From assembly GCA_028823105.1 (NCBI GenBank), contig JAPKCC010000027.1, positions 1 to 35,491 of the forward strand: a DNA stretch of 35,491 nt, read 5' to 3'. Of this stretch, positions 1 to 34,112 are shown piece by piece. The notes under the pieces were generated by a model. That model did not search any database, was not told the DNA's origin, and saw nothing but the letters and a program-made list of their open reading frames with translations. The position numbers and the translations under genes are program-made. Origin of the DNA: Phycisphaerales bacterium (GTDB taxonomy: Bacteria; Planctomycetota; Phycisphaerae; Phycisphaerales; SM1A02). Every line of letters begins with the position of its first letter. Within the stretch, counting starts at the first letter, position 1.

Positions 1-2742
1 GACCCCGAGACCGGGCTGTACATGGGCGAGATCACCGACATCACCGCGGCTGGCAACGCCGGCAAGCTCTCGCTCACCGTCACCGAGGGAACCTTCAACT
101 ACGGCGGCGCCGCCGACTACACCGGCAACACCACGATCAGCGATGGCGGTACGTTCCGAATCGACGGCGACGGTGTCGGCACCGGTCTGGTTGAAAACAC
201 GGAAAACCTGCTGGTCACCGGCGGCACGCTGCTGCTCGAGACCAGTGCTCGTCTGGAAGGCAGCGGAGATGTGGCGGTCTCCAACGGTTCGACAATCGAT
301 ATTACCGCTGACGCGACGAACGGTGCGAACCTTGAGTTCGACGGAGATGCAACCATCGACGGTTCCGTCACGCTTTCCGGCGACCGCGGCGCGACTCACA
401 ACCTCATCTTCGGAAGCAGCGGGGCGGACACGGCCAGGGTTCGGGGATCGATCACCGCGTCCAACAATGCGGGCGCCCTCTTTAATGGCGACCTGAACGT
501 CGGTGGGGAAATCATCCTTGAGGACACCGCGATCGCGGAGGTCAAGGGTATCCTCGAATTGGACGGACTCATCGACCTGAGCGGAACTTCGGGCGACGGT
601 CTCACCATCGGCGACGGACTCGACATCACGGCTGGTGGGCAGGTTCAGGCCGCAGGGTCGCGGACCGTGACGATCACCGGCGACAGTACCGTCGCGCTCG
701 GTGGCGGCGTTCTGCTCGAAGACGACTCAGCCATGACCCTTACCGGCGACCTCGACAATGCAGGTACGTTCTCGCTCACCGACGCGGCCACGCTTTCGGT
801 GACGGGGGACGTGACCGGCAACGGAAACCTCACTCTGGAAGACACCGCTTCGGCCACTGTCGTTGGCGACGCCGCGTTCTCCATCATCCAGGCCAAGGAG
901 GCTTCCATGGTGGACGTGACCGGCAGCCTGGGGCTCACCGGAAACAGTTTCTTCGAAGCAGGTACCACGCTGACCGTCGGGGACATGCTGACCATCGGAG
1001 ATCCGGCGGATCTCACCGCTCCTGCGATGCTCGAGTTACGTGCAGACGGCGTGACGCAAATGTCCCTGACTGCCACCAATGGCATCGAGGTGGTCGCGGG
1101 TTCGACCCTCGTGGCGAACGCGAACATCGACACCGCTATGCTCACGTACGCGGGCAGCGTCTTTGCCGGCGTCTACGGCAACTCAACCGGCGTTCTCAAT
1201 CTCCAGACCGGCGACCTCGTCTCCGACTCTTCGGACGCAAAGATCACCGTGAACCTGACCGGCGACTACGTGAATGATCTTGCTGCCGGCGACTTCGGCC
1301 AGACGTCGGTGGTCAACGTCGCCTCCGGAATGAGTAACTTCACCGACAGCGGAAGCGTCTTCGTCGACGTCCTCGACTTCTCCTACATTCCCGACGACAA
1401 GGACATCGTTCTGTTGAACAGCCCCGGAGGCATCACCGGGGATGCAGACGTCACCACGAGCCAGGACGAATCGGTCACTCGAACTTGGTCGATCAACCCG
1501 GACAACGGGGGTGGATTCGATCCGCTGACTCAGGTCTGGGCCCGATCCGCCGCCGATTACACGAATACGCTCGCAGGAACACCCGAGTATCTTCGCGGTG
1601 TCGAGCTTAACTCCCTGCGACCGTCTGCAAACAGCGATCCCACGAGTGACTCCGGCATCCTGCTCGGGGCATTGGACGCCATCGACGACGCCGCCGAGTA
1701 CGCGGCCGCCCTCGAAGGCGTGGGGCCCACGGTGCAAATCTCGGCCGTCCAACTCGCGACGAACACGCAGTACTTCAACGTACTTCGCAAAGAGATCCAG
1801 CGTCGGCACGCCACCGTCCAGCAGCGCACACCCGCGCCGTTCCGACTGAGTAACGGCACCGACTACATGTCCGCACAGGACGACGCGGTGCAGACCAAGA
1901 TTCGTCGAGCCGTTCGACAGCCCTCGACTGCCGAAGGCTTCGGTGTGTTCTGGGGTCGGAGCATCGATACCCCCGACGAAGGTGACATCGCCGGCATCTC
2001 GGGTAACGAGTACGGCGGGCTCGGTGGTTTCGCGTGGGATCTCAGTGAACAGTGGGTCGCAGGTGTGAACCTTGGCTACTCGCAGCTCTCAGGTGATGTC
2101 AATGGTGGTTTCGGCAACACGCGAGTCGGCACGGTTCGAGGTGGTGGCTTCGTGAGCTGGGACGAGGGAGGCGGGCTCTTCTTGGATATGCAGCTCGCCG
2201 GTGCCTGGAACCACTATGACTTCACTCGATTCGTGCCCAACACCGGACTCAGTGCAACTTCGAAGGCCGACGGATTCGAAGTCGACCTCTCGGTGGGTGG
2301 TGGGTACCGCGTCGAACTCGGTGAGTCGTGGGCGATCACCCCTGAAGCATCGATTCTCTACTCGTACCTGAGCACCGGCGACATCAACGAGGATAGGTCC
2401 TCGGCCGCGGCCCTCGACATCTCACCCGGCGATCTCAACGCACTGATCAGCCGGGTCGGTGGAACGCTCTCCTGGAGTGCGTTGCCCGGGCTGGTCATCG
2501 ACGGTTCGCTCGGTTGGCAGGGCAACTTCAACTTCAACAGCAGCTACGACGTGAGCCTCGCCAATCAGGCCACGAAGCTGAACATCGCGGTCGACAACCA
2601 GACCATTAACACCGCGTACTACGGTCTCGGCGTGAACTGGACCCCGACCTACAACGTCAACGTGAGCCTGCAGTACGAAGGTCGTACCGGCGAAGGGTTT
2701 CACTCAAACATGGTCTACGGCGGCTTTTCGATCGGTTTCTGA
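1..2742 (+). CDS. autotransporter, C-terminal part (type Va secretion), 5' end outside window
   Basis: The frame is open from the first base, so this is the C-terminal 913 or so residues of a larger protein. The first ~560 residues are low-complexity Gly/Thr/Asp/Ala-rich sequence with recurring short strands (DVTGNGNLTLEDTASATVVG style), as in beta-helical passenger domains with autotransporter-associated repeats. From about residue 640 to the end there are alternating amphipathic strands (GGFAWDLSEQWVAGVNLGY, GGGYRVELGESWAITPEAS), and the protein ends in ...YGGFSIGF. A terminal Phe is the usual outer-membrane barrel assembly signal. The expected role is export of its own passenger through a 12-strand barrel onto the cell surface; the ligand or adhesive target cannot be told. 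A terminator follows 45 bases after the stop. The barrel assignment is strong, the passenger function unknown. Confidence 0.85.
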   Translation, partial: DPETGLYMGEITDITAAGNAGKLSLTVTEGTFNYGGAADYTGNTTISDGGTFRIDGDGVGTGLVENTENLLVTGGTLLLETSARLEGSGDVAVSNGSTIDITADATNGANLEFDGDATIDGSVTLSGDRGATHNLIFGSSGADTARVRGSITASNNAGALFNGDLNVGGEIILEDTAIAEVKGILELDGLIDLSGTSGDGLTIGDGLDITAGGQVQAAGSRTVTITGDSTVALGGGVLLEDDSAMTLTGDLDNAGTFSLTDAATLSVTGDVTGNGNLTLEDTASATVVGDAAFSIIQAKEASMVDVTGSLGLTGNSFFEAGTTLTVGDMLTIGDPADLTAPAMLELRADGVTQMSLTATNGIEVVAGSTLVANANIDTAMLTYAGSVFAGVYGNSTGVLNLQTGDLVSDSSDAKITVNLTGDYVNDLAAGDFGQTSVVNVASGMSNFTDSGSVFVDVLDFSYIPDDKDIVLLNSPGGITGDADVTTSQDESVTRTWSINPDNGGGFDPLTQVWARSAADYTNTLAGTPEYLRGVELNSLRPSANSDPTSDSGILLGALDAIDDAAEYAAALEGVGPTVQISAVQLATNTQYFNVLRKEIQRRHATVQQRTPAPFRLSNGTDYMSAQDDAVQTKIRRAVRQPSTAEGFGVFWGRSIDTPDEGDIAGISGNEYGGLGGFAWDLSEQWVAGVNLGYSQLSGDVNGGFGNTRVGTVRGGGFVSWDEGGGLFLDMQLAGAWNHYDFTRFVPNTGLSATSKADGFEVDLSVGGGYRVELGESWAITPEASILYSYLSTGDINEDRSSAAALDISPGDLNALISRVGGTLSWSALPGLVIDGSLGWQGNFNFNSSYDVSLANQATKLNIAVDNQTINTAYYGLGVNWTPTYNVNVSLQYEGRTGEGFHSNMVYGGFSIGF

Positions 2743-11554: not shown

Positions 11555-12190
11555 ATGATGGATGCATCACTCGTGCGACGAGCTCAGATCCTGTTCGGAA
11601 GGAGCGGTGACGGCTTCGTGGACGCGGGCATGGAGAAAATCGTCATGCAGACGAAGGTGCTCTCCGGGATCGTTCGAGGTCTGCATCAACACGCCACCGG
11701 AGCCGCGATCGTCGTTGAATCGACCGCGTCGGCTCAATTGCTCAAGCCATGCGCGGAAGCTGCGTGGTCGGAGTTCCCAGAGAACGCCCAAATTACGGTT
11801 CAGCACGATGAGGCCGAGGTGGGACTGTGCGTTGACGTCCGGAGAATCGCCGAGATTGCGATCGAAGCGGTTTGAAACGCCTCAGATGACAAGGAAGACG
11901 TCTGTATTTGCATCCGAGGTTCAATCGACCCGCTCGATGGCCGATGGTCTCTCTTGGTTGAGGATGACGGTTTGGGGTTCGGGCAAGCAGGGCTCGAACA
12001 CGCCTTTGATCCGTTCTTCAGCCAGAAGACCGCCGGACGGCGGACAGGCTTGGGCCTGGCAGTCGTCCGTCGAATCGCGGAAGCGCACGGAGGCTCGGCC
12101 TCGGTGCACAACCGAGCCGAGGGAGGGGGATGCCTCGTGGTGTCCTTTCCGATCCAGAGTCCAGACGAAACAACTCGATCCGCTGCGTGA
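11555..12190 (+). pseudogene. histidine-kinase-type ATPase domain protein interrupted by one in-frame TGA
   Basis: One frame of 211 codons starts at ATG 11555 (GAAGGA ribosome site upstream) and is broken only by TGA at 11873-11875. The interruption falls in the ATP-binding N-box: DVRRIAEIAIEAV, stop, NASDDKED, where N is the Mg-binding Asn. The frame continues without any shift through the G1 box (VEDDGLGFG), F box (AFDPFFSQK) and G2 box (TGLGLAVVRRIAEAHGG) of a HATPase_c domain. There is no sensor domain and no clear phosphoacceptor-His DHp helix; the first ~60 residues are only loosely DHp-like. A single C-to-T change from CGA (Arg) would make the stop. It may be a recent nonsense pseudogene, a read-through gene or a sequence error. 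Without read-through, the products would be a 106-residue piece and, from TTG 11954, a 78-residue piece, neither a complete ATPase. Its neighbours in the same direction are a response regulator and a GAF protein. Confidence 0.75.
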
Positions 12191-13408: not shown

Positions 13409-14095
13409 TCAGGAGGCCAGGGTCGAATTCGAGTCCGACGCCGGCTCGCGAAGAAGCACGGTGACCCCACCGGTCACTCGGTCTCCCTTCGAGACCAGGA
13501 TCTCGATTCCCGGTCGATCACGAATAATCAACTCGGTCGTGGAGCCGAACTTGATCATGCCGAAGCGGTTGCCGCGTCCGACTCGATCACCGGGAACCAG
13601 CGGGCAGACGATTCGTCTGGCGATCGCGCCTGAGACCTGTCGAACGCCGATCGGCTCGCCCTGCTCTGACTTCAAGACGATGAGATTCGATTCATTGACC
13701 TTCGCCGATTCTTCGGTGCGGGCATCTAGGTATCGGCCCGGCCGATGCGTGACGGAGACCACTTCCGCATCGCAGGGGGCGCGATTGATGTGTACATCAA
13801 GCACGCTCAGGAAGATCCTGACGAGGACCGCAGGCTGTCCATCGGTCGCTTCATGGCCGTCGAGTCGCTCTACCAGGCTGACCTTGCCATCCGCGGGCGA
13901 CAGCAGATCGTGATGATCCTGCGTGGCAGGTCGTCGGCCGAGAGGATCTCGAAAGAAGCCGGCGATGACGATCCAGCAGAGGCCGATGGGGATCAAACTC
14001 CACCACAGCCCCATGATCGCCGCCGGAATCGCGATCAGGACCGCGATCACGGTCGCGATTCCCCATTCGCGTCGGCCGTATTTGCTCAGAAGCAC
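13409..14095 (-). CDS. psd: phosphatidylserine decarboxylase proenzyme, short (archaeal-like) type
   Basis: 228 residues from GTG 14095. The enzyme converts phosphatidylserine to phosphatidylethanolamine at the inner membrane, using a pyruvoyl group made by self-cleavage. Two N-terminal membrane-associated segments (TVIAVLIAIPAAIMGLWW, LIPIGLCWIVIAGFF) come first. SPADGKV (~66-72) and VHINRAP (~101-107) follow, and then the processing site FGMIKFGSTTEL, where cleavage between G184 and S185 would create the pyruvoyl. Length and order match the class-II PSD-A type rather than the ~320-residue E. coli form. The start is not certain: no Shine-Dalgarno is evident and no ATG is in frame. It is 61 bases downstream of the membrane HTH gene and could be co-transcribed with it. 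Confidence 0.88.
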   Translation of the reverse strand: MLLSKYGRREWGIATVIAVLIAIPAAIMGLWWSLIPIGLCWIVIAGFFRDPLGRRPATQDHHDLLSPADGKVSLVERLDGHEATDGQPAVLVRIFLSVLDVHINRAPCDAEVVSVTHRPGRYLDARTEESAKVNESNLIVLKSEQGEPIGVRQVSGAIARRIVCPLVPGDRVGRGNRFGMIKFGSTTELIIRDRPGIEILVSKGDRVTGGVTVLLREPASDSNSTLAS

Positions 14096-14156
14096 GGAGT
14101 GGTGCCCAATCGAAGGCGACGTCGGTCGGCTCCGGGCGATGCCCGGAACCGGTGGA

Positions 14157-15005
14157 TCATTCGGAGGCCTTGCCGATGAAGAAACCGAGCAGGCCGAAGA
14201 TGATGAGGGCGCCGATGAGGCCGCCGAACCAGATCATCATGCCGCTGGTCATCATTTCTGCGAGTGCGGGCAGGGTGCCACTGGAACCGACGAATGCCAT
14301 CAGTGCGACGAGGCAGAGCGAAGCCACTGCGACGATGCCCATGCCGACACCGAGGCCGGACCAGCCGCCTTCGTAGGACTCGACGATCATTGGAACGCCG
14401 CCGATGGGCATGCCGCCGCCAAGATTGTTTCCGCCGCTCTCCGCGCCGGCTGCCTCGAAGAGGCCACTCGAACTTGCGGGGATCGCCGGGTCGTCATCAT
14501 TCGAATAGACCTCGTCGAGGAGTTCCGCGCCGAGGGATGTGTCGTCCGACTCTCGAGTCAGGTCAAGCAAGCCACTTCCACTGCCGACGGTCTCTAGAGA
14601 GAGGTCGTCGTTGAGAAGGTCATCGCCCGAGGCTTCGTTCTCGAACGCGCTGATTCCCGTTCCCATGCCGCTTCCCGCGAGGAAACTGTCGTCAGCACCG
14701 GCGGTCTTGGAGTCTTCGAGTCCGATTTCTCCGCTCATCTCAAGGGAGACTTCGTCGCCGTCGATGCCGGGCGCCGAACCACTCAGGCCGAGTGAGTCGG
14801 CTTCGCCGCTGTCATCGAGATTGATGGAGAGGTCACCGATGTCGTCGGTCGAGGAGATCATGTCGATCTGTTCGACGCGGAACATGTCCTGGCCTTCCTT
14901 CTTGAAGGACTGGACTTCACCGCTTTTCGCCATCGCCATGAGCTCGTCCACGGACTTCCCGAGCTTGCCAGCGGCCTCTTTGGCCGAGTAGAACATCTTC
15001 GCCAT
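14157..15005 (-). CDS. membrane-anchored protein with N-terminal excisionase-like HTH
   Basis: 282 residues from ATG 15005, preceded by an AGGAGA ribosome site ten bases upstream. Residues ~4-50 (FYSAKEAAGKLGKSVDELMA, then VQSFKKEGQDMFRVEQIDM) resemble the same excisionase/MerR-like helix-turn-helix family as the regulator at 10945. Residues ~52-205 are an acidic, Ser/Gly/Asp-rich low-complexity linker. Two hydrophobic segments close the protein, ~219-241 (GMGIVAVASLCLVALMAFVG) and ~258-279 (IWFGGLIGALIIFGLLGFFI), with only a very short tail. The expected topology is a cytoplasmic HTH tethered to the inner membrane. The domain may bind DNA or act as a protein-interaction module; the family function is not known to me. 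Confidence 0.75.
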   Translation of the reverse strand: MAKMFYSAKEAAGKLGKSVDELMAMAKSGEVQSFKKEGQDMFRVEQIDMISSTDDIGDLSINLDDSGEADSLGLSGSAPGIDGDEVSLEMSGEIGLEDSKTAGADDSFLAGSGMGTGISAFENEASGDDLLNDDLSLETVGSGSGLLDLTRESDDTSLGAELLDEVYSNDDDPAIPASSSGLFEAAGAESGGNNLGGGMPIGGVPMIVESYEGGWSGLGVGMGIVAVASLCLVALMAFVGSSGTLPALAEMMTSGMMIWFGGLIGALIIFGLLGFFIGKASE

Positions 15006-15146
15006 CGGATCTACGTCTCCTGGGCCGAAGGCCCGGTCGTGGTCAATCAATGGTACGAGGAGGCCGGATCCGGCCCGCCTTCCTACCTTTGAGGATCATG
15101 GAGGATACCCCGAGTCCGAGGCCCCCGCAAAGCGGGATTCGCAGTC

Positions 15147-16298: not shown

Positions 16299-18593
16299 TC
16301 AGTTCCTTGAGCCGACGGTCGCGAGCAGTTCATCTTCGTCGCGTTGATCCCGATCCTCGCGCCCGCCCGGATAGGCGATCCGGGAGTGGTAGATCGCGCA
16401 GAGGCTCTTGATGATCGAATCCTCGATCACCCTCAGCTCTCGGAAGGTCAGATTCGAATCATTGAGTTGACCATCATCGAGGCGGCGTCGACTCATCTTC
16501 CTCACGAGCGATTCGATTCGACTTGGCGTCGGGTCGCTCATCGCGCGTGTGGCGCTCTCGATGCCGTCGCAGAGCAAGAGGATCGCTGCTTCGCGGGTCT
16601 GCGGCTTCGGGCCGGGATAACGGAACTCGAATTCGTCGACCGCGCCGCCCTCGTCGGCGGCCTTTTCGCGTGCGGCGTGGAAGAAGTACTCGACGAGCGA
16701 GGTGCCGTGATGACTCTCGATGAAGTGCCGGAGAACTTTCGGAAGGCCGTACTCCTGCGCGAGTTCGAGGCCGTCCTTGACGTGGCCGATGATCACCAGA
16801 AGGCTCATGGCCGGGCTGAGCTTGTTGTGCTTGTTGTTGCCGCCGCCTTGGTTCTCGATGAAGTACTCGGGCTTATTCAACTTGCCGACGTCGTGATAGA
16901 GCCCCCCGACGTAGACCAGGCGACTATCAGCGCCGATCGCTTCCGAGGCATTCTCGGCGATGGAGGCGACGGCGAGCGAGTGGTTATAAGTTCCGGGTGC
17001 CCGGGACTGGAGTTCTCGAAGAAGGGGCTGGCGGGTGTCCCGAAGTTCCGCGAGGGTGAGTCCGGTGGTGATGCCGAAAAGTTTCTCGATGCTCGGCATG
17101 ATGCCGAGCATGAAGAACCCGGCGAAGAGCGTGCCGGCTCCGGCGAGCGCCGCCTGCACCATCACCTGCATGGGAGCGCCGGGTGTGTCGAGTGGAATGG
17201 CGGCGAGGCCCTGCGCGAGGAACACGATGATGGTGGCGATTCCTGAGAGCACCGACGCTCGGACGAACGTGCCGCGATTCGGAATTTCCTTGAGTTGGAA
17301 TGCCAGGCAGGAACTGGCTGCGAGCAGGGCGATCGCATAGATGGTGTGTCCACCGATGGCGACCGCGATCGACACTGAACCAAGCAAGCCGGCGAAGATC
17401 GCGATCCGCCGGTCGTAGGCAAGGGTCAGAGTAATGGCGAGAATCGAGATCGCGAGAGTGGCGCCGAAGGGCGTCAACCGGGGAAACGCGACCGCGAAGA
17501 AGGTGCCCAGGGCCGTGCATCCGACGAGCAGAAGAAGGACGGCGGTCAGCCTCGGAGTGCTTCGTGCGATCCGGGGATAGAAGGCGGTTCCATGTCCGGC
17601 GAGAAGGACGACCACCACCAGGGCGAGGAACATCCAGCCCGCGATTCGACTCCAAGTGCCGCGGATCCCGCCTTCCTGGAGTGCGTTGGCGAGCGCCAAT
17701 CCACCGATCTCGATCCGCGATGCGTCGAGCACGTCTCCTCGGGCATAAATGACTTCGCCGGCAGCGTGTTCGATAAACACGTCGGCGACTCGGTCTGCGG
17801 CTTCGTCCGCGGCGAGGGTGGTCGCAGCCGGATCGAAGAGAACGGTTGGACTCGGACGGTTGATGATCGCGGCGATGACGATCTCCGCGGCATCCCGCGG
17901 GAATCCAGAATAACGAGCGAGTTTGATCAGGCTCTGTCGCACCCGAGTGGTCATTCCATCTGGGACGAGTTCGATGGCTCGCTGTACGGTCACTGCGGTG
18001 GACCGATCCGGAACGCGAGGGGCGATGGCTTCGCTGTCGCCCGGTTTGGGTGCCGTCGCGCCGTCCGACGGATTCGTGTTGTCTGCCGCAAGGGGCTCGA
18101 TCTCAGTAACTTCGATCGATACCGGCGGCAGGACCTTCCGCGTCGAGACGGTCGTGAATTTCTGGAATTCGAGCGTCTCTAGAAGAGGCTCATTCTGCCA
18201 GAGTGCGTCGACGAATTCGTCCACCGATTCTCGCCAGGTCGGCGACGGACCATCAGGAGTCTGGTATCGCTGCAGTACGGAGAGCGAGGCGTCGGTGAGT
18301 CCGAACTGGTCCTGCAGCCCGAGGTCGACATCGTCGAGGATGAGGGCGGAACGAACGGCGACGGGCAGTCCCATCAACTTCGCTCGGAGGTCGGCAAGAT
18401 AGGTCGGGTCGGCGTTGTAGAACCGAGGTGCCGCACGGCGCGCCTCGTCGCGACGTCGTTGAGTCTCGTCGTCGTCGAGCACGCGGAACGCGAGCGGATT
18501 CACGAGACTGTCCGTGGCGACTTCGCCAGGCCAGACCCGGGGACGGGTCCGTGCCCAGGTGGTCACCACCGTCAAGAGCATCGCCGTCACCAC
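16299..18593 (-). CDS. 7TM receptor with intracellular HD hydrolase domain (PgpH-like cyclic-di-AMP phosphodiesterase)
   Basis: 764 residues from the first canonical start (GTG 18593). One N-terminal membrane segment is followed by a ~270-residue extracytoplasmic 7TMR-HDED-type domain. A cluster of about seven membrane helices then runs from ~310 to 500 (MFLALVVVVLLAGHGTAF, LTAVLLLLVGCTALGTFFAV). The cytoplasmic HD domain contains LYHDVGKLNKPEYFIENQ, a conserved His in IIGHVKDGLELA, HHGTSLVEYFF and CDGIESATRAM. PgpH proteins hydrolyse cyclic di-AMP. The last residues are polar and acidic. The reading frame upstream stays open and strongly coding-like to at least 18728, without any ATG/GTG/TTG/CTG. 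Starting at GTG 18593 would cut the first membrane helix short, so the true N-terminus is probably upstream. Confidence 0.85.
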   Translation of the reverse strand: MVTAMLLTVVTTWARTRPRVWPGEVATDSLVNPLAFRVLDDDETQRRRDEARRAAPRFYNADPTYLADLRAKLMGLPVAVRSALILDDVDLGLQDQFGLTDASLSVLQRYQTPDGPSPTWRESVDEFVDALWQNEPLLETLEFQKFTTVSTRKVLPPVSIEVTEIEPLAADNTNPSDGATAPKPGDSEAIAPRVPDRSTAVTVQRAIELVPDGMTTRVRQSLIKLARYSGFPRDAAEIVIAAIINRPSPTVLFDPAATTLAADEAADRVADVFIEHAAGEVIYARGDVLDASRIEIGGLALANALQEGGIRGTWSRIAGWMFLALVVVVLLAGHGTAFYPRIARSTPRLTAVLLLLVGCTALGTFFAVAFPRLTPFGATLAISILAITLTLAYDRRIAIFAGLLGSVSIAVAIGGHTIYAIALLAASSCLAFQLKEIPNRGTFVRASVLSGIATIIVFLAQGLAAIPLDTPGAPMQVMVQAALAGAGTLFAGFFMLGIMPSIEKLFGITTGLTLAELRDTRQPLLRELQSRAPGTYNHSLAVASIAENASEAIGADSRLVYVGGLYHDVGKLNKPEYFIENQGGGNNKHNKLSPAMSLLVIIGHVKDGLELAQEYGLPKVLRHFIESHHGTSLVEYFFHAAREKAADEGGAVDEFEFRYPGPKPQTREAAILLLCDGIESATRAMSDPTPSRIESLVRKMSRRRLDDGQLNDSNLTFRELRVIEDSIIKSLCAIYHSRIAYPGGREDRDQRDEDELLATVGSRN

Positions 18594-18728
18594 GACCGCG
18601 AGGACGCCGTTGACGAAAAGTGGTTGCCGCGCAATCTCGGCGACGGTCGGCCCTTTGGGGCGGATCGCCGCGGAGATTCGGCTCCGTCTGGTCGAACGAG
18701 GCTTGAAGATGCGTGAGAGGAATCCGAT
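18594..18728 (-). other. probable N-terminal extension of the 7TM-HD gene lacking a canonical start codon
   Basis: In frame with the gene, this stretch reads IGFLSRIFKPRSTRRSRI ... ARQPLFVNGVLAVVVTAMLL: a basic cytoplasmic N-terminus that completes the first transmembrane helix. Codon third positions are mostly G or C, as in neighbouring genes. No ATG, GTG, TTG or CTG occurs in this frame before the stop at 18852. Candidate near-cognate starts are ATC at 18728 and ATT at 18635. An assembly error is also possible. Confidence 0.5.
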
Positions 18729-18869
18729 GGTTGTGGTTCTCTTCGGTCGGTCGGCGTGGAAGATCGGTGCGGTTTTGGCTTGGCCGAATTTTAGCGGCGG
18801 TTGCTGGTGGGAATCATCTCCAGCCTCATACGGCCCGCTTGTTCCATCAGTTCATATCGACCATTTTTG

Positions 18870-31549: not shown

Positions 31550-32809
31550 TCAGTCGCCGCGGTATCGGCTGAAGACCAGGCTGACGTTGTGACCACCGAA
31601 GCCGAATGAGTTGTTGACCGCGTATTCGACTTGCTGCTCCCGGGCGGCATTGGGAACGAAGTCCAGGTCAAAGCCATCGTCGGGATTATCGAGGTTCATG
31701 GTCGGAGGAAGGATGCCGTGCTCAAGTGCCTTGATGACCGCGACCGATTCGATGCCTCCGGCCGCACCGAGGGCGTGGCCGGTCATCGACTTTGTCGAAC
31801 TCATGGCGAGTTTCTTGGCGTGATCACCGAAGACGGAATTCACCGCATAGACCTCGGCGGCGTCGCCCAAGGGGGTGGAGGTTCCGTGGGCGTTGATGTA
31901 GCCGATCTGTTCCGGGGCGACTCCAGCATCTCGGAGGGCCCACTTCATGGCCTTCGTGGCGCCGATTCCGTTCTCTTCCGGTGCAGCGATGTGGTGTGCG
32001 TCGCCGCTACTGGCATACCCGATGATCTCGCCGTAGATCTTGGCTCCACGTGACTTGGCGGATTCGAGCTCCTCCAGGATCAACACCGCGGCGCCTTCTG
32101 CAAGGACGAATCCGTCTCGATCGCGATCAAAGGGGCGAGAGGCCTTCTCGGGCGCGTCGTTTCTGGTGGAAAGCGCCCGCATCGTCCCGAAGGATCCGAT
32201 GCAGAGTCGGCTCACGGCCGCCTCCGTGCCACCCGCGAACATGACGTCGGCGTCACCTCGTTGGATCAACTGGAACGCCGCACCAAGCGAGTGTCCCCCG
32301 GTGGCGCAGGCGGTCGCGACGGCGATGTTGGCGCCACGAAGGTTGTGCCGAATCGACACGTTTCCAGCGCAGGCGTTCACCATCAGTTTTGGGACGGTGA
32401 ACGGGCTGATCTTCTTGGGACTGCTTCGCTCGAGCTTCTGGAGCCCGACTTCGATGGTAATGATGCCACCGATACCCGAACCGATCGCCACGCCACGACG
32501 ATCCGGATCGCCGGTCGCGAAGTCGATTCCGCAATCCTGCGCGGCTTCTTCTGCGGCGACTAGCCCGAGCAGGCTTGCCCGGTCCATGCGTTTGGCTTCA
32601 CGAGTGTCCGCCACATGGGAAAAGTCAAAGTCCTTGACTTCTCCCGCGAAACGGGTGGTCCACTCGTCATCCTGTTCGAATGCAGTGATCGGGCCGATGC
32701 CGGTCCGTCCGGACACCATGCCGTCCCACGTCGAATCGACGTCTCTTCCGAGATCGGTGATCGCACCGAGGCCGGTAATGACGACCCTGCGGAGGGTGAT
32801 GGTCTTCAT
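31550..32809 (-). CDS. fabF: 3-oxoacyl-[acyl-carrier-protein] synthase II
   Basis: 419 residues, the normal KAS II length. FabF condenses malonyl-ACP with acyl-ACP in each elongation round of fatty acid synthesis. The N-terminus RRVVITGLGAITDLGRDVD is typical. The nucleophile is C168 (VATACATGGHS), and the two catalytic His lie in YINAHGTSTPLGD (~308) and STKSMTGHALGAAGG (~345). The glycine-rich end NNSFGFGGHNVSLVF is present. It follows acpP by 63 bases on the same strand, in the usual fabG-acpP-fabF order. Confidence 0.95.
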   Translation of the reverse strand: MKTITLRRVVITGLGAITDLGRDVDSTWDGMVSGRTGIGPITAFEQDDEWTTRFAGEVKDFDFSHVADTREAKRMDRASLLGLVAAEEAAQDCGIDFATGDPDRRGVAIGSGIGGIITIEVGLQKLERSSPKKISPFTVPKLMVNACAGNVSIRHNLRGANIAVATACATGGHSLGAAFQLIQRGDADVMFAGGTEAAVSRLCIGSFGTMRALSTRNDAPEKASRPFDRDRDGFVLAEGAAVLILEELESAKSRGAKIYGEIIGYASSGDAHHIAAPEENGIGATKAMKWALRDAGVAPEQIGYINAHGTSTPLGDAAEVYAVNSVFGDHAKKLAMSSTKSMTGHALGAAGGIESVAVIKALEHGILPPTMNLDNPDDGFDLDFVPNAAREQQVEYAVNNSFGFGGHNVSLVFSRYRGD

Positions 32810-32872: not shown

Positions 32873-33121
32873 TCAGCTCTTGTTCAGGTTTTGCTTGATG
32901 AATGCAATCGCTTCGCCAACGGTCTGGATCTTCTCGGCGTTTTCATCCGGGATCGAGGTTTCAAACTCATCCTCGAACTCCATGACGAGTTCGACGGTAT
33001 CCAGGCTGTCGGCGTTGAGGTCGTTGGTGAAACTCGTTGTTCGCGAGATTTCGGCGCGGTCAACGCCCATCTGCTCTGCAACGATGTCAATCACTTTGGT
33101 TTCAATCTCAGCTTCGGTCAC
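32873..33121 (-). CDS. acpP: acyl carrier protein
   Basis: 82 residues from GTG 33121, with TTGGAGA about nine bases upstream. The frame is open further up to 33232 but that stretch is not ACP-like. The 4'-phosphopantetheine attachment Ser is S39 in [19 protein letters not shown]. The sequence is acidic and helical throughout, as expected. It carries the growing acyl chain for FabG, FabF and the other Fab enzymes and lies between fabG and fabF. Confidence 0.95.
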
Positions 33122-33241: not shown

Positions 33242-33976
33242 TCAGAGCGCGAGACCTCCATCGACCACCAAGACCTGCCCGGTGACGTAGGAAGCCCCTT
33301 CAGAGGCGAGATAGGAGACCGCCGCGGAGACATCTGTGGTCTCTCCCAGCCGTCGGGTTGCGATTCGCTTGGTCATCTCCTGTTCGAGATGGGGAATCAG
33401 GGCTGCCGTCATTTCAGTCTTGATGAACCCTGGGGCGACCACGTTGGCGGTCACGCCTTTTCCGCCCAGTTCCTTCGCCACGGTCTTGGTGAGTCCGATC
33501 AGACCGGCCTTGGCGGCCGAGTAGTTCACCTGTCCCGGGTTCCCGGTGATTCCACTCACGGAGCCGATGTTGATAATTCTGCCGTAACGGCCTTTCATCA
33601 TCGGGCGTGCAGCAGCGCGACAGGCGACGAAGGTCGATCGGAGATTGACATTGAGTACGTCATCGAAGTCGGCGTCGCTCATGCGAAGGAGCAAGCCGTC
33701 TCGGGTGATGCCGGCATTGTTGACCAGTACATCGAGTCGGCCGGCGGTCTCCGCGACCTCTTCGATGAGTTCCCCGAGGGCATTGCCCTGGCCGATGTCG
33801 CAGACTCGGAATTCCGCGCGTCCACCTGCTTCGCCGATTTCCTCCACCAGTGATGCGAGCGGGTCCGCGGATCGGGCGATCGCCATCACCTGCATGCCGT
33901 CGGCAGCGAGTTGAAGGGCGATGGCGCGGCCGAGACCGCGACTGGCGCCGGTGACGATGGCGAGGCGGGTATCGAT
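33242..33976 (-). CDS. fabG: 3-oxoacyl-[acyl-carrier-protein] reductase, apparent AUC start
   Basis: 244 residues when read from ATC 33976, exactly the length of E. coli FabG. The N-terminus is then (M)DTRLAIVTGASRGLGRAIA, the complete NADPH-binding TGxxxGxG turn. The catalytic residues are S139 (INIGSVSG), Y152 and K156 (NYSAAKAG), one off from E. coli S138/Y151/K155. The first in-frame ATG (33895) would delete the whole first beta-alpha unit and cannot make an active enzyme. No ATG/GTG/TTG/CTG exists in frame between 33895 and the stop at 34033. A GGAG lies seven bases before the ATC. An out-of-frame ATG at 33989 means a one-base assembly error is the alternative. FabG reduces the beta-keto intermediate of fatty acid elongation. 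Confidence 0.85.
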   Translation of the reverse strand: MDTRLAIVTGASRGLGRAIALQLAADGMQVMAIARSADPLASLVEEIGEAGGRAEFRVCDIGQGNALGELIEEVAETAGRLDVLVNNAGITRDGLLLRMSDADFDDVLNVNLRSTFVACRAAARPMMKGRYGRIINIGSVSGITGNPGQVNYSAAKAGLIGLTKTVAKELGGKGVTANVVAPGFIKTEMTAALIPHLEQEMTKRIATRRLGETTDVSAAVSYLASEGASYVTGQVLVVDGGLAL

Positions 33977-33983
33977 GAGCGGA

Positions 33984-33987
33984 CTCC
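33984..33987 (-). promoter_or_regulatory. Shine-Dalgarno GGAG that decides the fabG start
   Basis: GGAG on the minus strand is separated by seven bases (TCCGCTC) from ATC 33976. The same GGAG overlaps the out-of-frame ATG at 33989. CTCC directly upstream can pair with it (CTCC-CCAT-GGAG), so it may be partly masked. Confidence 0.55.
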
Positions 33988-33990
33988 ATG

Positions 33991-34020
33991 GGGAGGAAGG
34001 GGGAGGAAGGGGGAGGAAGG
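33991..34020. repeat. three perfect 10-bp tandem repeats, all-purine/all-pyrimidine
   Basis: GGGAGGAAGG occurs three times without a mismatch on the plus strand. In the fabG transcript it reads CCTTCCTCCC three times, just upstream of the GGAG ribosome site. The unit contains a CCTCC core resembling the 3' end of 16S rRNA. Confidence 0.95.
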
Positions 34021-34082
34021 CGACTGGTGGTCAGCCGAGGAAGACCGGTTCCCGGTGTGTCGGGAACCCAAGTGGGGTCGAA

Positions 34083-34112
34083 ATTGTACAGATCATCCTG
34101 AGGGTCTGTCGC
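34083..34112 (-). promoter_or_regulatory. candidate sigma-70-like promoter for fabG-acpP-fabF
   Basis: On the minus strand, GCGACA (34112-34107; 4 of 6 matches to TTGACA) is followed after 18 bases by TACAAT (34088-34083; 5 of 6 matches). It would start transcription near 34076, about 100 bases before the fabG start. This is pattern matching only. Confidence 0.4.

Follow-up and report, generated by a model that had tools for sequence, protein, structure and literature searches.

Comparative evidence for a conserved, probably weak AUC start codon of fabG in a Phycisphaerales family

In one family of Phycisphaerales, fabG appears to start at AUC. About 30 genera related to one another keep the codon, a pattern that suggests deliberate throttling and not sequencing error. 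Comparison among relatives shows both where the predicted start lies and that it is conserved, and we infer its low initiation efficiency, its response to initiation factor 3 (IF3) and the benefit of that response. The reading that we favor, at a probability of about 0.85, is that fabG carries a conserved weak AUC start that would be used by ordinary fMet-tRNA, would throttle FabG and is probably IF3 sensitive.

The window is a stretch of 35,491 nucleotides, contig JAPKCC010000027.1 of a Phycisphaerales bacterium. The features of its fabG locus are as follows.

33242 to 33976, minus strand: fabG (3-oxoacyl-ACP reductase), 244 amino acids from ATC, TIGR01830, with S139, Y152 and K156
33974 to 33976, minus strand: predicted AUC start codon of fabG, present in 8 of 8 genus species and as ATC at the aligned codon in 69 of 112 family genes (30 of 43 genera)
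33984 to 33987, minus strand: Shine-Dalgarno sequence GGAG, 7 nt above ATC, without variation in all eight genus species
33987 to 33989, minus strand: out-of-frame ATG, judged not to be a start, found in two of the eight genus species and in frame in none
32873 to 33121, minus strand: acpP, GTG start at 33121, control gene, NCBIfam acyl carrier protein models
31550 to 32809, minus strand: fabF, ATG start at 32809, control gene, TIGR03150 at 594.1 bits

A sequence-only reading of this DNA had proposed the AUC start, and its account of the locus was borne out. The fabG frame is open from a TGA at 34033-34031 down to the stop at 33242. No ATG, GTG, TTG or CTG lies in frame between that TGA and ATC 33976, and the first in-frame ATG is at 33895. 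Reading from ATC 33976 gives 244 residues with S139, Y152 and K156 in place, and GGAG at 33987-33984 ends 7 nt above the codon. In the same reading residues 9 to 16 are TGASRGLG, in agreement with TGxxxGxG; ATG 33895 lies downstream of this glycine motif, which would be lost from a protein that started there. If AUC is the start, gene finders limited to ATG, GTG and TTG would drop the nucleotide-binding N terminus of FabG in such genomes. The protein scored 311.9 bits against the NCBIfam FabG equivalog TIGR01830, above the cut-off of 297.75; three narrower FabG equivalogs also matched, each below its own cut-off. Moreover, acpP and fabF lie directly downstream, the context of a fab operon. Judged by equivalog model, motif and catalytic residues, and operon context, the window gene is FabG. 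No other SDR encoded in the genome exceeds 33% identity to it, and thus there is no close second copy and this is the only evident FabG of the genome.

The start is held in place within the genus. Seven further species were found, which with the window species made a set of eight. Relatives that kept ATC together with GGAG were to support the AUC start, and relatives sharing an in-frame ATG to refute it. The outcome favors AUC: all eight read GGAG-N7-ATC followed by GA, and GGAG (-11 to -8) shows no variation. Over the 60 nt from ATC, difference rates at the three codon positions were 0.039, 0.000 and 0.252, while from -60 to -16 they were 0.62, 0.64 and 0.62, the DNA from -16 upwards being saturated with differences. 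Thus, among the eight species, substitution of the coding type starts exactly at ATC, with a third-position pattern below the codon and none above it.

Conservation extends through the family. Of 181 genomes searched, 162 had a FabG match at E <= 1e-60, and fabG starts were read in 112 of these, picked to cover genera and representing 43 of them. At the aligned codon, defined as seven above VTGAS, ATC was present in 69 of the 112 genes and in 30 of the 43 genera. Most of these ATC rows (58 of 69) have no ATG, GTG or TTG in codons -16 to -5, and in 36, from 21 genera, these codons are missing all the way to the stop or the contig end. A Shine-Dalgarno sequence of at least 4 nt stands 3 to 12 nt ahead of 60 of the 69 ATC starts; for the 898 remaining ATC codons read in frame within the same genes, the share is 14%. 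Assigned by hand, the 112 genes comprise 67 with AUC, 5 with AUU (G014, G062, G084, G101 and G184), 32 with a canonical codon, 2 with ACG or ACA, and 6 that are ambiguous because of a nearby canonical codon or the lack of a Shine-Dalgarno sequence (G020, G028, G031, G070, G106 and G108). By that assignment, AUC starts occur in 29 of the 43 genera and AUC or AUU starts in 31. Four of the 67 have AUC at a shifted position (G011, G099, G100 and G136), and in G204 the aligned codon is ATC, yet the gene looks like an ATG start. The Shine-Dalgarno match was little longer in the AUC/AUU group, at 4.6 nt versus 3.9 nt (P = 0.08), a point against the favored reading. We conclude that fabG resembles genes with AUU, AUC or AUA starts in having no usual alternative in the frame above (in the window gene and in 36 of the 69 ATC rows), a well-placed Shine-Dalgarno sequence and a conserved weak start codon, and that the observation of an odd start is confirmed and, given its conservation in relatives, beyond chance.

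The codon itself is not fixed. One aligned start position exchanges codons, with ATG in G183 and ATT in G014 and G184. A FabG tree of 123 rows, built from the sequence from VTGAS onwards and with 45 of 120 inner branches weak, required at least 15 changes between AUC/AUU and canonical starts by parsimony when ambiguous and ACG/ACA rows were left out, a count that does not separate gain from loss. With 32 of 112 starts canonical and 15 changes of state, AUC is not indispensable for fabG. We note that the fabG genes of L207 (G068) and L246 (G079) have ACG and ACA, respectively, neither canonical nor AUC/AUU, and that a relative, G065, has its start ATG at that place behind the same AAGGAA.

Beyond the family, and beyond fabG itself, starts are ordinary. 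The start of fabG was canonical (ATG or GTG) in all 23 genomes read, of 24 from the other families of the order. Among 67 more distant loci (L082 to L148, three of them Phycisphaerae), a canonical codon lay within 20 codons in 66, L103 being the exception, and ATC at the aligned place was found in none of the 67. Within the family, acpP starts at the expected place with ATG, GTG or TTG in 45 of 45 copies read, and all 32 fabF copies read carry a canonical codon no more than 20 codons away. Thus, the odd start is a property of fabG and not of the operon or the assemblies. Motif searches for rpmI and rplT, meant as further control genes, gave no true matches.

A mechanism can be proposed. Translation of fabG would begin at AUC, positioned by the Shine-Dalgarno sequence, and the ordinary initiator tRNA (anticodon CAU) would pair with AUC despite the third-base mismatch, such that the first residue of FabG would be fMet. 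Weak initiation would hold FabG output below the AUG level. In excerpts of PMC13009471 and PMC5559785, AUU, AUC and AUA starts form a class under IF3 control in Escherichia coli. As IF3 rejects such codons, a shortage of IF3 should raise FabG output and an abundance should lower it, in the manner of infC. FabG, however, is a metabolic enzyme, and any IF3 control of fabG would therefore act in trans.

Perhaps AUC is a fixed throttle only, one that keeps FabG scarcer than ACP and FabF, and any IF3 response is irrelevant to the cell. Start strengths in the operon look graded, since a conserved GTG in acpP stands beside the AUC of fabG: GTG is the acpP start in 42 of 45 family copies, always at one position, and fabF has an ATG in 31 of 32. 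Moreover, ATG starts of fabG in several genera would fit the tuning of a constant level. IF3 discrimination against AUU, AUC and AUA is general in E. coli, however, according to an excerpt of PMC13009471, and some IF3 response would thus be hard to avoid. We regard a purely fixed throttle as a serious competitor, at somewhat under even odds.

The gene for IF3 offers a comparison. Of 30 infC loci of the order that were fetched, the N terminus was found in 25, and 24 of these have a near-cognate start behind a Shine-Dalgarno sequence, with the first conserved motif following 16 to 19 codons below it (ATC in 17, ATT in 4, ATA in 2 and CTG in 1). In L192, the only such codon lies 39 above that motif. 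Usual codons occur nearby in some of the 25 loci, nearly all without a Shine-Dalgarno sequence. The infC start is also near-cognate where fabG has ATG (genomes of family f2, and G015). Thus, the two traits do not appear to track each other, which counts against a dedicated IF3 link. Control of fabG by IF3 proofreading nonetheless seems plausible, and it gains a little from the shared start class of infC.

The position of the start has been taken here to be AUC, but ATC might instead encode an internal isoleucine, with initiation further up the frame or at ATG 33989 followed by a +1 frameshift. A canonical codon does occur somewhere further up the frame in 33 of the 69 ATC rows. In six genomes, however (G109, G132, G114, G115, G022 and G010), only 1 to 8 codons, none of them canonical, separate the in-frame stop from ATC, and thus no usual start fits. 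Coding-type signal is absent above ATC in the eight genus species, and ATG 33989 is present in just two of them. Moreover, the third base of the aligned codon is C in 69 cases and T in 1, whereas other isoleucine codons of the same fabG genes are 82% ATC (957 of 1,166), such that C at the start appears somewhat more favored than codon usage would predict, a caveat being that the rows are related. Both an upstream start and a frameshift were rejected on the strength of the short frames and the absent coding signal, and we consider them very improbable.

An AUC start might also be an artifact, an indel in the assembly between 33976 and 33989 that masks an ATG start. Only 13 nt separate the out-of-frame ATG from ATC 33976 below it, its final G being the first base of GGAG, and a perfect 10-nt tandem repeat of 3.1 copies (33990-34020) is close by in the fabG leader. 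The sequence-only reading had named this rival itself, and it failed on comparison. An extra or missing base between 33976 and 33989 was found in none of the eight genus species, GGAG-N7-ATC has the same length in all eight assemblies, and ATG 33989, present in G000 and G007, is missing from the other six. The repeat lies wholly upstream of ATG 33989, such that no slip within the repeat would change the register of that ATG. Given the agreement of the eight assemblies, we reject the indel as having almost no chance of being right. By eye, the tandem repeat was not seen in the seven sister species.

Also negligible is an initiator tRNA with anticodon GAU that would decode AUC, as the initiator-type anticodon arms among the matches listed, found in 51 of 61 genomes by an arm pattern that left the first anticodon base free, all carry CAT, and the one GAT tRNA found in the window's own genome is an ordinary tRNA-Ile. 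No initiator arm matched in 10 of the 61 genomes, including the window's own, where two CAT tRNAs were found and neither fits the pattern. Among the matches listed, there was thus no AUC-reading initiator tRNA.

The start of fabG does not stand alone. When 27 coding-like window genes were compared with syntenic contigs of three sister species, 7 were flagged, fabG and one other likely AUC gene among them.

16299 to 18728, minus strand: gene for a 7TMR-HD membrane protein, predicted second AUC-start gene, PF07697, PF07698 and PF01966, ATC at 18728-18726

Its open frame runs from 16299 to 18851 on the minus strand, and the conserved N terminus begins at ATC 18728. All eight species of the genus share this codon, and 7 of them have no canonical codon up to the stop. 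Difference rates by codon position were 0.086, 0.102 and 0.418 below ATC versus 0.63, 0.71 and 0.70 above it in the eight species. A Shine-Dalgarno sequence of at least 4 nt precedes ATC in 5 of the 8; in the window copy, AAGAGAA is all that stands there. Among 11 copies from elsewhere in the family, 10 have, by eye, a canonical codon close to the N terminus, the eleventh (L408) being left out. AUC starts therefore appear not to be unique to fabG. The product is a predicted membrane phosphohydrolase that, by analogy, may act in cyclic-dinucleotide signaling. Perhaps infC, fabG and, in this genus, the 7TMR-HD gene form an AUC regulon through which free IF3 would tune lipid synthesis and membrane signaling to translation capacity, but we think this unlikely. 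Among G006 genes, 6 of 50 were flagged, again including 7TMR-HD, and two others had no Pfam match.

The remaining flagged window genes were rejected as AUC candidates. The frames at 117-395 and 1863-2075 (minus strand) lie opposite a 913-amino-acid frame, and at 13409-14233 and 14157-15095 the third-position bias is absent upstream of the first usual start. The fifth, 11876-12190, corresponds to the end of a kinase frame whose length in G006 and G003 is 714 codons. This fragment (plus strand) holds an HATPase_c fragment (PF02518), and the kinase seems to be shortened or rearranged in the window's genome.

AUC starts had been said to be rare. That part held in the stretches surveyed, although the survey, based on codon-usage extension, was insensitive and missed known AUC genes (fabG in G026, G006 and G003; 7TMR-HD in G006, G003 and G007), and although the window itself has a further AUC gene in 7TMR-HD. 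Four of 281 genes were flagged in 400 kb of G026, one of them with ATC and a Shine-Dalgarno sequence, an ankyrin-like open reading frame below the Pfam cut-off. In 400 kb of the control G046, 4 of 300 were flagged, none with ATC behind a Shine-Dalgarno sequence and one with CTG behind such a sequence. The counts were 0 of 97 in G006, 1 of 63 in G003, 1 of 39 in G007 (fabG) and 3 of 23 in the window, namely fabG, 7TMR-HD and 1186-2088 (minus strand), which overlaps the 913-amino-acid frame on the other strand. The 400 kb of G026 weakly suggest that AUC starts are rare, and across G026, G046, G006, G003, G007 and the window this insensitive survey gave no support for everyday genome-wide use of AUC.

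Near-cognate starts of this kind are already known, for infC, ccpN and rnhC, and it is the family-wide case of fabG that is new. What is unusual is the combination of a core lipid-synthesis gene, the AUC codon and retention over about 30 genera. In E. coli, pcnB is a chromosomal gene held low by an AUU start; fabG shares with it a chromosomal near-cognate start, but gene and codon differ. Like fabG, infC (AUU, AUC or AUA in E. coli and others) departs from AUG at the third base, has a Shine-Dalgarno sequence ahead and has been retained for long, and it is present in these genomes with the same start class; unlike fabG, it is autoregulated by its own product. An excerpt of PMC13009471 describes near-cognate starts for infC, ccpN (AUA, Staphylococcus aureus and Bacillus subtilis), cvfC1 (AUU, S. 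aureus) and citZ (AUA, S. aureus), and reports that in S. aureus, under poor medium, AUU and AUA reporters reached about 10% of the level obtained with AUG. As far as that excerpt goes, ccpN, cvfC1 and citZ resemble fabG in having a near-cognate codon behind a good Shine-Dalgarno sequence in genes outside translation, with ccpN and cvfC1 conserved, but codons and genes differ, the hosts are Firmicutes, and their Shine-Dalgarno sequences are extended whereas those of fabG are mostly 4 to 6 nt. Listeria rnhC has an experimentally confirmed ATC start in an excerpt of PMC13068326, and thus AUC itself as a fixed start; there it was shown within one species, while the AUC of fabG spans about 30 genera of a family. 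Among the matches listed from the open-licence literature, an AUC start of fabG is unreported, and as subscription papers fall mostly outside that literature, this is weak evidence of absence. If the favored reading is true, nature would offer in fabG a core metabolic gene with a near-cognate AUC start throughout a family, and an IF3-level link between fatty-acid synthesis and translation becomes testable.

The leader of fabG has features of its own.

34083 to 34088, minus strand: predicted -10 box TACAAT of the fabG promoter, TGTACAAT, by eye, in all eight genus species
34047 to 34068, minus strand: leader hairpin GGTTCCCG-acacac-CGGGAACC, scored against shuffles

The -10 box is predicted from consensus resemblance only. 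The hairpin scored 26 against a shuffle mean of 7.2, and 0 of 20 shuffles reached 26; scores of at least 34, above all 20 first-order shuffles of each leader, were found in 33 of 109 leaders. Similar hairpins precede ATG-start fabG genes in family f2, also by eye, and the hairpin was rejected as a cause of AUC. In many genera, about 25 to 80 nt above fabG, a sigma70-like -10 box (TACAAT or TAGAAT, by eye) comes a few bases before a GC hairpin with a T-run, after which the Shine-Dalgarno sequence follows (L019, L025, L030, L034, L036, L163, L209 and others). The predicted 5' end of the mRNA would thus carry a terminator-like hairpin. Genus g26 seems to differ, with its hairpin above the promoter. 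Further up, a protein PQLW...DDWIAAW with a Gly/Pro-rich tail is conserved above fabG in most of 16 loci by eye, including L017, L030 and L034, and it is itself preceded by a FabD-like sequence in L017 and L034.
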